Source: Cytophagaceae bacterium
Lineage (GTDB): Bacteria > Bacteroidota > Bacteroidia > Cytophagales > UBA9547
Length of the DNA stretch: 64,000 nt
NCBI GenBank assembly: GCA_027488865.1
Contig: JAIYAU010000030.1
Coordinates: forward strand, 62,001 to 126,000
Direction of reading: 5' to 3'
Below are positions 3,183-49,046 of the stretch, in pieces; position 1 is the first letter of the stretch; every line of letters begins with the position of its first letter. Below the pieces are notes generated by a model. That model was not told where the DNA came from, searched no databases, and worked only from the letters and a program-made list of their open reading frames with translations. A program made the translations under genes and the position numbers.

Positions 3183-4187
3183 TTAATTTTCACCTTCGAT
3201 GTTACGATAGGTTTTTGCGATTAACTCCTCATTTTCATAGGCAGTTATTATTAGTTTCACCAAACCATGCCTTAACACATCTTGTGTATCAAGCTCAACA
3301 AAACCAATGCCTTTAATTCCTTTTAATACTTGTACAGCGTGAATAAGCCCTGATTTTTGTTTTTTAGGTAAGTCTACTTGAGATTTGTCTCCAGTAATGA
3401 TTACCTTTGAATTAGGTCCCATTCTTGTAAGAAACATCTTTAGTTGCAATGGGGTTGTATTTTGTGCTTCATCTAATATAATAAAAGCGTTATTAAGTGT
3501 GCGACCACGCATATAAGCCAATGGTGCTATTTCTATGATATTATTTTCCTTATAGTATTTTAGTTTTTCGGCAGGTATCATATCGTCAAGCGCATCATAA
3601 ATCGGCCGTAGATATGGATCTAGTTTTTCCTTAAGGTCACCCGGTAAGAAGCCTAAATTTTCTCCAGCTTCAACAGCGGGTCTTGTAAAAACTATCTTTT
3701 TAACTTGTTTCTCCTTCAATGCTCTCACTGCTATGGCTACAGCTGTATATGTTTTTCCTGTTCCTGCGGGACCTAATGCAAACACTAAATCATTTTGACG
3801 GATGGCGTCCACCATCTTTCGTTGATTCGGTGTTTTTATTTTGATTACTATGCCTTTGTTGCCATGAAGCAGCACGTCATCATCTTCACTTTCGTCAGGA
3901 GCTTGGGTGTTTTTTTCAACTTCAGCAATCAGCTTTACTTGGTCTTTGGTCAAATTACCAAATTTATGAAAATGGCTAACCAACATACTTAGGAGTTCAT
4001 GTACTTTTTGAATATCATGTTCACTTCCTTGAATGCGAATTTCATTTCCTCTACTTACAATCTTAGATTTAGGAAATGCTAAAGCAACTTCTTTAATGTT
4101 CTGGTTTTCGATACCAAGGAAATCCAACAAAGGAAGGTCTTCTAGGCTAAATACTGATTCTGTCAAATGATTAATTTTATCTTGCAA
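3183..4187 (-). CDS. phoH: PhoH-like ATPase
   Basis: Cytoplasmic P-loop ATPase of the PhoH/YbeZ family, which is linked to RNA metabolism and ribosome maturation in other bacteria. Walker A is GPAGTGKT at residues 139-146 and Walker B is AFIILDEAQNTT; the region MRGRTLNNAF between them is typical. The N-terminal part (residues 35-75) resembles the small KH-like region of the family. 334 residues, normal for the group. The frame starts with TTG at 4187; no ATG occurs before residue 68, so TTG here, or the TTG at residue 8, must be used. First gene of a probable operon with nuoH and the CPBP protein. Confidence 0.93.
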   Translation of the reverse strand: MQDKINHLTESVFSLEDLPLLDFLGIENQNIKEVALAFPKSKIVSRGNEIRIQGSEHDIQKVHELLSMLVSHFHKFGNLTKDQVKLIAEVEKNTQAPDESEDDDVLLHGNKGIVIKIKTPNQRKMVDAIRQNDLVFALGPAGTGKTYTAVAIAVRALKEKQVKKIVFTRPAVEAGENLGFLPGDLKEKLDPYLRPIYDALDDMIPAEKLKYYKENNIIEIAPLAYMRGRTLNNAFIILDEAQNTTPLQLKMFLTRMGPNSKVIITGDKSQVDLPKKQKSGLIHAVQVLKGIKGIGFVELDTQDVLRHGLVKLIITAYENEELIAKTYRNIEGEN

Positions 4188-4260
4188 AAATACTTAAAAG
4201 AGTTCAAAACTTATTAGGGAAGATTTTATTTTTTACAGAAATGAGTTGTTATAAAAAAGT

Positions 4261-4286
4261 AAACCCCAATGGAATCATTGGGGTTT
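4261..4286 (-). terminator. rho-independent terminator (11-bp stem)
   Basis: A perfect 11-bp inverted repeat (AAACCCCAATG / CATTGGGGTTT) with a GAAT loop. On the minus strand the stem is followed by ACTTTTTTAT, a U tract, so it fits termination of the RsmI-like gene 245 bp upstream. It also insulates phoH, whose start is 74 bp further on. A second hairpin (AAAGTAAG/CTTACTTT, 4296-4315) lies just before it in the same transcript. Confidence 0.75.
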
Positions 4287-4531
4287 CTAAAAGTGAAAGT
4301 AAGTAAACTTACTTTTTAAAAAAAGTATCTTAAATATTATTAAGGTTATAGTTATCTGCTTTTGACGTATCAAATATAAAGAATAGTTTTGAATTCAATA
4401 TTAAGTTTATGTTAATTTTTCATACGAAATTTGAATAAACACGGTTTAATAAGTAATTATTTGGCATAAAATGGTTTTGAAGCGCTAATAAAGTGATTTT
4501 AGGAAGTAAAAATATTACTAATCCAAGAATA

Positions 4532-19500: not shown

Positions 19501-19770
19501 AATATATGGATGGTTACTAAAAATGACCGACCTTATGTCATGTTATAAGGTGGTTTTTGATATGTCATTCGGCGCTAGATTAAATCTCAGCTCCTGCTAT
19601 TTATCCCACCCTATTCACAAAAACGAGAAGGTTTATTTAAAACCAGTCGGCGGCTCTTGTTTTTATATCATCTCATGAATAATTTGGGTTTAATCAAAAT
19701 TAATCAAGTGTTGGGATTAGTGTTAATTTACAAAAACCTAGGAATAGATTTAAAAATACACATCCATCAG
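19501..19770. other. intergenic with one hairpin (possible terminator)
   Basis: Between repeat copy A and the 3' end of the next minus-strand gene. ACCTTAT / ATAAGGT pairs across an 8-base loop at 19530-19551 and is followed by GGTTTTTGA, a possible but weak plus-strand terminator. At 19677-19690 ATAATTTGGGTTTAA resembles the right end of repeat copy B, so a repeat remnant may extend here. Nothing else was seen. Confidence 0.35.
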
Positions 19771-41643: not shown

Positions 41644-41874
41644 CCCATTTTATACATTAAGGTATTTAACACTTTTAAATCAATTTGTAGTATCAAATAA
41701 CTTATAATTGCAGTATTCAGATAAATAAGCTTGTTTTAAGGAAGGATTGGCCTTAAAGAAAATGCGTTAGAAAACCTGTCTGGTTTTTATTAGGAGAATT
41801 AAGGTTTTCAACGGTTTTTGGTTAAAATCTGACAGGTCTATTATAAAAGAGTACCGTCCTATGCATAATTTGGG
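41644..41874 (+). repeat. MITE-like repeat, copy B (hybrid or diverged right half)
   Basis: Begins CCCATTTTATACA and ends TGCATAATTTGGG (11 of 13 bases of the reverse complement of the consensus end). The first 120 bp align with copies A and C, including ACTTATAATTGCA and GGAAGGATTGGCCTTA, then AAGAAAATGCGTTA as in C. The right half differs and holds its own inverted repeat, ACCTGTC at about 41774 and GACAGGT at about 41831. No clear target duplication. Lies 60 bp upstream of rlmH. Confidence 0.65.
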
Positions 41875-48670: not shown

Positions 48671-49046
48671 ATAAACCCATTTTATGCAATAGAAAAATTT
48701 AGATTGCTTATGTCTTTAAAATATTCTGTGTCATCAATCGTCATTCCTGTGCAAGTTTTCTTGCTTTTTGTCTTGAAACAAAAAGTAACCAAAAATTCAA
48801 GGCTGTGAATAAAATGCTAAATTTCATTACGTTACGCTGGAAATGTTTGAAACTCGGTCTTGTTCCTCGCCCTCAAACAACAAACATTTCTTAACCGCTT
48901 CACTCCATGAAATTCTTAACGCATTTTCTTCAAGGCCAATCCTTCCAAAAACAAGCCTCATTTATTAGAATAGTGCAATTATAAGCTGATTGACTTAACA
49001 AATTGATTTTTAAGTATTAAACTTCAACTGCATAAAATGGGATAAA
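48671..49046 (-). mobile_element. MITE-like element, copy C (full length, 366 bp plus target duplication)
   Basis: Perfect 13-bp terminal inverted repeats, CCCATTTTATGCA at 48676-48688 and TGCATAAAATGGG at 49029-49041, flanked by the direct repeat ATAAA at 48671-48675 and 49042-49046. No frame of useful length lies inside. It carries the CTTTTTGT / ACAAAAAG hairpin near 48770-48790 and the direct repeats TTCAAGG(C) near 48795 and 48929 that bound the segment missing from copy A. It lies between the T9SS repeat protein start and the 206-residue orphan gene. No transposase is seen in the window. Confidence 0.7.

Follow-up and report, generated by a model that had tools for sequence, protein, structure and literature searches.

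A putative IS1380-type MITE in a Cytophagaceae bacterium and its passenger, a structured two-hairpin repeat dispersed across the Bacteroidota

The window considered here, by which we mean the whole stretch of 64,000 nucleotides that was analysed, contains three copies (A, B and C) of a short non-coding element. These copies and the component parts of copy C are as follows.

48676-49041: copy C, 366 bp, with inverted ends that agree at 13/13 positions and a 5-bp duplication, ATAAA
19267-19501, minus strand: copy A, 235 bp, hairpin 2 gone, no duplication remaining
41644-41874, minus strand: copy B, 231 bp, right arm in common, interior and other end different, no duplication

48671-48675, no strand: ATAAA, left half of the 5-bp target duplication of copy C
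48676-48688, plus strand: left terminal inverted repeat, CCCATTTTATGCA
48689-48755, plus strand: left arm of the MITE, common to other copies in the same genome
48756-48937, plus strand: passenger, the two-hairpin core (model R1, 215.9 bits, copy C being one of the five sequences behind this model)
48761-48788, plus strand: hairpin 1 of the core, with the loop CTTGAA (from folding)
48796-48803, plus strand: TTCAAGGC, left direct repeat at the foot of hairpin 2 (from the alignment of copies)
48801-48937, plus strand: hairpin 2 of the core, a long stem with one-sided bulges that contain CTTAA (from folding and covariation)
48929-48936, plus strand: TTCAAGGC, right direct repeat; copy A lacks hairpin 2 between both repeats
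48938-49028, plus strand: right arm of the MITE
49029-49041, minus strand: right terminal inverted repeat
49042-49046, no strand: ATAAA, right half of the target duplication

The terminal sequence CCCATTTTATGCA of copy C (48676-48688) forms an inverted repeat without any mismatch with positions 49029-49041 (13/13), and ATAAA is found at 48671-48675 and again at 49042-49046, so that the perfect 13-bp terminal inverted repeats (TIRs) and the flanking duplication claimed in the original prediction are both present. The same is true of the conserved hairpin and of GGAAGGATTGGCCTT, and the ORF listing contains no gene inside the element, in keeping with the prediction that no protein is encoded. 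Copy A had been described as copy C minus a stretch between two repeats, and this description is correct: 133 bp are absent between the TTCAAGGC repeats at 48796 and 48929, and copy A is one base longer than had been given. Its two ends each carry one mismatch relative to copy C, and its flanks agree at 2/5 positions only. The kinship of copy B with copy C, likewise proposed beforehand, resides in the right-hand arm that both have in common; the other end of copy B is the variant CCCAAATTATGCATAGG, which is related to, yet distinct from, the MITE end, and no duplication was seen at its flanks. This variant (41858-41874, minus strand), which closes copy B, and the variant end CCCAAATTATTCATGAG (19672-19688, minus strand), which lies downstream of copy A, both have A+T-rich outer flanks. 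Possibly, CCCAAATTATGCATAGG and CCCAAATTATTCATGAG represent a second type of end; a loose variant-end pattern was no more frequent than expected by chance.

The three copies belong to a larger family in this genome, which is available as a draft assembly of 4.33 Mb in 64 contigs. A search of it with copy C yielded 23 matching pieces that group into 20 places, mostly truncated, and the 13-bp end led to an additional place (C61:13670-13791; 122 bp) without the core. The genome-wide count of the TIR, which had been suggested as a check on the family, came out in its favour, since CCCATTTTATGCA at no more than one mismatch occurs 24+14 times versus 5+3 times for the reversed control. Pairwise identities among the four best-preserved copies (C, A, L002 and L004) amount to 78-88%, and the identity of the more decayed copies falls to about 50% over aligned columns; because of this divergence, the family is not taken to be young. 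Among the six copies that possess two near-consensus ends (false pairs inside L002 and L004 were disregarded in this analysis), the 5-bp flanks agree at 5/5 positions in copy C, at 4/5 in two and at 2-3/5 in three, and the exact duplication is hence preserved in 1/6 copies, namely in copy C only.

Elements with the same ends are present in other genomes. As an exact pattern, the 17-bp end CCCATTTTATGCAWTAG occurs in 3/241 genomes of the order, the one studied here, G055 and G089, and reading the TIR loci of G055 and G089 for genes located between ends revealed short elements only. Across the genome contigs collection, CCCATTTTATGCAWTAG was detected at 69 loci, most of them without a second end; matches of this kind in distant phyla are probably due to chance. 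At 18 of the 69 loci an inverted pair of ends lies less than 400 bp apart and encloses elements of 139-333 bp, mostly in Bacteroidota. Their hosts are a Spirosoma fluviale MAG (eight elements), the Flavobacteriaceae isolate 710 (three), Cytophagaceae SKYG76 (two) and, with one element each, Aquimarina, Winogradskyella, a Bacteroidetes MAG (LEAD1), a Nitratifractor MAG and a Cloacimonadota MAG. The elements in the MAGs labelled Nitratifractor (L134, 2424-2588) and Cloacimonadota (L149, 206-538) have the same TIR and perfect duplications, and reflect either transfer or misbinned contigs. A perfect 5-bp duplication borders 13 of the 18 miniature elements, or 14 of 19 when a full insertion sequence of an uncultured Aquimarina (L185) is included and L180 and L181, two TIR pairs more than 1 kb apart that have no duplication, are excluded from the count. 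When the right flanks were reshuffled 20,000 times, the mean number of duplications was 3.7 and the maximum 11, versus the 14 observed among 19. The duplicated sequence is of the type WTNAW, with T at position 2 in 18/19 left flanks and A at position 4 in 19/19.

The ends and the duplication connect these elements with the IS1380 family. A profile search with PF13701 found matches in 1/3 genomes and then in 6/11 genomes that had been reached via TIR loci; the remaining 5/11 had no match. In Aquimarina muelleri (G242), the C-termini of four IS1380 transposases at contig ends run directly into CTAACGCATAAACTGGG, which differs from the MITE end by 2 mismatches over 17 positions and is followed by TTAAA, TTAAA, TTGAA and ATAAA, respectively; the left ends lie beyond the contigs. 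The IS1380 element of L185 measures 1,393 bp and has TTTAA on both sides. Its transposase is split over two frames, the longer piece of which scores above the cut-off of NF033539 (E = 8.5e-60), and the two ends of this one complete insertion sequence carry 5 and 4 mismatches, respectively, to the 17-bp MITE end. At L143, CCCATTTTATGCAATAG, with a single mismatch relative to the MITE end, precedes a decayed IS1380 gene, and the second end was not found at this locus. An IS200 tnpA gene (3861-4313; NF033573, E = 2.1e-41) is situated there among the pieces of the decayed IS1380 transposase gene. No convincing pair of ends was found for the IS1380 genes of L186, L187, L190, L191 and L193, nor for the G055 fragment L182.

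Judged from these comparisons, copy C can be classified as an IS1380-type MITE because similar ends flank IS1380 genes in Aquimarina and in another Bacteroidetes MAG. Ends that are similar, not identical, to those of the MITEs are present on IS1380 elements of other Bacteroidota that could act as autonomous parents, and a 5-bp A+T-rich duplication accompanies both kinds of element (TTTAA/TTTAA at L185, WTNAW at the MITEs). The assignment of the partner family thus stems from the ends and the duplication that they have in common, and not from co-residence in the genome studied here. Neither the PF13701 profile nor an Aquimarina IS1380 protein detected an IS1380 gene in this assembly, and no pair among its TIR loci bounds an autonomous element. 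The Spirosoma MAG, in which the MITE copies are most alike one another, likewise has no PF13701 match. Inverted ends, target duplication, many copies and the presence of the same kind of ends on IS1380 elements of other Bacteroidota bear out the term "MITE-like" of the original prediction; the insertion sequence with the same ends for which it recommended a search has its counterpart, with similar ends, in those other Bacteroidota and none in the own assembly. Its suggestion of a transposase that is active, or was so recently, at another place in the genome is not supported, because searches of the assembly detected no IS1380 gene and the copies have diverged (78-88% identity, with an exact duplication at 1/6). 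A survey of open-licence PMC text yielded no description of IS1380 MITEs in Bacteroidota.

The interior of copy C has a distribution of its own. When copy C was used to search its own genome and 58 relatives, none of which belongs to the same genus, 13/59 genomes matched, the own one included. The matches in the relatives mostly cover positions 80-275 of copy C only, and those in other genera or families have different flanks; in G007 the matching stretch falls within an open frame, and in G055 only the end matches. The covariance model R1, built from five aligned sequences on which the structure of copy C had been imposed by hand, was run against a phylum-wide sample of 296 genomes and detected the core in 72 of them (own genome included) at E <= 1e-3; 41 of these reach 1e-8 or better, and the weaker ones may include chance matches. 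The TIR at no more than one mismatch was found within 300 bp of the core at 0/48 loci outside the own genome, four of which have flanks shorter than 300 bp, and one locus (L234) has a core with two weak MITE-like ends and no duplication. Conversely, model R1 found the core at none of the 23 loci of other genomes that carry these ends (18 MITEs and 5 IS1380 elements). In G461, the likeness among seven copies of the core begins at hairpin 1 and stops at GGCC, and their flanks are unrelated.

Beyond the phylum, a full two-hairpin core (L286, 1492-1660; 93.1 bits) is present on plasmid pILYOP01 of Ilyobacter polytropus (Fusobacteriota), which suggests transfer between phyla. A search of plasmids gave three partial matches, and one of phages gave none. 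Core copies also occur as inverted pairs: on plasmid 9 of Parabacteroides distasonis (L287), two full cores (1492-1658 and 1892-2058) surround a gene for a 'smalltalk' peptide, and L251 likewise contains two core copies (1305-1474 and 1501-1679) as an inverted pair.

A second genome, G268, shows the core inside an element with other ends. Five of the eight core copies examined there are located within a repeat of 471-480 bp whose ends are close to CTGAGTATCCGC and CTGACTATCCGC; L269 has the right end only, L267 and L271 have neither end, and L271 shows little likeness beyond the core. By eye, A+T-rich duplications that are near, not exact, flank most of the five full copies. In L266 and L273, the right part of the approximately 478-bp element includes a hairpin and a linker that resemble, by eye, an inverted partial core. 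As the cores of G268 reside in an element with different ends, the core is also carried by a second type of element with inverted repeats. The hairpin, which the original prediction had counted among the features of the element family, belongs to a separate, phylum-wide unit that is carried inside it.

This unit consists of the small hairpin 1, a conserved linker CAAAAA(N)TCAAGGCTG and the long, bulged hairpin 2, in the internal loops of which the right side reads CTTAAC or CTTAA. Members of several families, when folded one by one, arrive at this arrangement; some members fold otherwise when taken alone. In the five-sequence alignment, 97.1% of the cells are paired, and changes on both sides affect 20 of 49 pairs, compared with 7.7 in shuffles. 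Among 49 sequences aligned to the model, 93.3% of the cells are paired and compensatory changes occur at 47/49 pairs, counts that lean towards the structure of copy C because the model alignment had this structure given by hand; the covariation value of these 49 sequences is 0.647, compared with 0.157 after shuffling and at most 0.111 when slid. From a MAFFT alignment of 14 cores, RNAalifold recovered hairpin 1 alone since hairpin 2 is misaligned in it. Template switching can keep both arms of an inverted repeat alike, so that covariation alone is no proof of selection for function. Rfam contains no match to the core at the gathering score and three sub-threshold matches only at E values up to 10, and we found no description of it in open-licence PMC text. 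On the strength of its distribution and of the compensatory changes, we regard the core as an element in its own right that is dispersed across the phylum and whose shape appears to have been kept.

What kind of element this is can be answered with varying degrees of assurance. We give an even chance to the view that it represents an undescribed, phylum-wide family of approximately 180-bp two-hairpin repeats with compensated stems, conserved single-stranded motifs of its own and a separate mobiliser, taken up at least twice by unrelated MITEs (those of the own genome having IS1380-type ends and those in G268 CTGASTATCCGC ends).

Somewhat unlikely, and the strongest of the competitors, is the proposal that the core acts as a structured RNA or marks transcript ends, being kept at the 3' ends of genes and spread by recombination and not by transposition. 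The compensatory changes in the stems would suit it, as would the placement of 67 copies (42/51 plus 25/48 rows after weak, cut, overlapping or repeated ones were dropped; own MITE copies included; ORFs standing in for genes), which distribute into 21 in convergent spacers, 26 co-directional and antisense, 8 sense, 5 divergent and 7 at sequence edges, although arrays make these counts non-independent. It is weakened by the finding that no gene family is constant beside the core and by the fact that gene ends are also the places where mobile elements survive best.

Less probable again would be a REP-like substrate of a Bacteroidota Y1 (HUH) transposase, comparable to the TnpA-REP of subclass 2.6, that moves as single-stranded DNA. 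The strand asymmetry of the bulged hairpins, the dispersed copies without visible duplication and the inverted core pairs of L251 and L287 would accord with such a mode of movement; atypical structures beside subclass 2.6 genes are described in the portion of PMC6006769 that bears on them, and the own genome encodes a Y1 protein (L088) with YIHQNP, a subclass 2.6 motif. However, model R1 found the core at 0/69 Y1 loci (9 own, 30 and 30 others; 69 of the 116 Y1 matches reported), and in two surveys 2/12 and 1/8 core-bearing genomes were without any Y1 match; for the loci tested, a REP/RAYT relationship is therefore rejected. With the integrase loci added, the core was detected by model R1 at 0/79 loci.

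A single ancient element, in which the core would be the body of the MITE and would have been spread everywhere by the same IS1380 ends, is highly improbable. By eye, six core copies of the own genome, among the matches listed (7 counted), do have recognisable MITE arms, but these ends occur at 0/48 outside core loci (those of L234 being weak and without duplication), the core occurs at 0/23 of the MITE and IS loci with these ends in other genomes, and in G268 it is found within an element bearing other ends; the plain MITE body is largely refuted by outside cores without ends and outside MITEs without core.

The least credible reading of all, and one disfavoured here, is that the core serves integrons as an attC-like site for the recombination of cassettes. 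It would explain the one-sided bulges and a region of G512 (G512:C1:597.2-608.5 kb; L256, 2202-13461) where the core follows 7/8 consecutive genes in one orientation, but TIGR02249, the integron integrase profile, has sparse matches (above cut-off in 5/13 core-bearing genomes, neither G512 nor the own genome among them), the core is present at 0/10 loci from the TIGR02249 search (5 above cut-off), and cores are found as well in convergent spacers and in tandem runs that contain no genes. The genes of this G512 region resemble, by eye, a polysaccharide cluster.

We consider it very probable that copy C and its relatives are IS1380-type MITEs that took in the core, that hairpin 2 was lost from copy A, and that the family is a decaying relic; the ends, the duplication, the partner family, the separateness of the core and the loss of hairpin 2 from copy A are the parts of this picture that the sequence comparisons establish. 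The IS1380-type MITE would be non-autonomous and share its ends with a branch of the IS1380 family found in Bacteroidota. Acting in trans, a transposase would recognise CCCATTTTATGCA(A/T)TAG-like ends, move the element and thereby duplicate 5-bp WTNAW targets. In the lineage of the bacterium studied here, this mobile unit would then have taken in a pre-existing two-hairpin repeat of about 180 bp. According to the part of PMC9330008 that concerns us, IS1380 elements mobilise adjacent DNA through misrecognised distal ends; capture of the core might have followed this route through a misread distal end, or the two-hairpin repeat might itself have inserted into a MITE. No locus was found in which such a capture is in progress, and no empty site was encountered. 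In copy A, hairpin 2 was deleted between the TTCAAGGC repeats, conceivably by slippage across the hairpin. Because searches of the assembly detected no IS1380 gene, the family is probably a decaying relic that would now be inactive.

Several known systems can be compared with these elements. MITECca01 of Cardinium, to the extent that PMC9769881 is drawn on here, is similarly short and non-coding, has inverted ends like those of its parental insertion sequence, and occurs in many, mostly intergenic copies; it differs in that it derives from IS982 and that its parent is in the same genome, whereas the MITE reported here has IS1380-type ends, no parent that could be found and an unrelated, conserved structured repeat as its interior. 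With the IS1380 family (NF033539, PF13701), whose transposable modules ISPme1 and ISEcp1 are treated in the relevant sections of PMC9330008 and which is reported there to mobilise neighbouring DNA through misrecognised ends, our element is linked by the ends and the 5-bp duplication that it has in common with IS1380 elements of Aquimarina; it differs in that it lacks a transposase, measures 366 bp and carries a passenger that does not code for protein. The REP sequences of TnpA-REP (RAYT) proteins of subclass 2.6, as portrayed in the pertinent part of PMC6006769, are also dispersed, palindromic, bulged and largely found in Bacteroidota. The core is about 180 bp in length and comprises two hairpins; by eye, its alignment reveals no conserved GTAG foot, and it is absent beside the tested Y1 genes. 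A MITE of P. gingivalis with a minisatellite (PMC4596501, in the passages used) is another Bacteroidota MITE with repeat cargo; there, as far as these passages go, the cargo is a minisatellite, and here it is a phylum-wide structured unit.

Collectively, the MITE itself is of a known kind, and its structured passenger is the part worth pursuing. The findings assign orphan MITEs from several Bacteroidota to a transposase family, IS1380, for which an end and a target are defined, and bring to light a structured repeat, absent from Rfam, to which about one in four of the Bacteroidota genomes sampled has a match. Should the core prove to be an RNA or an element that moves as a single strand, it would offer a testable system in a major phylum, and its uptake by different transposons, if true, would show how cargo enters MITEs.
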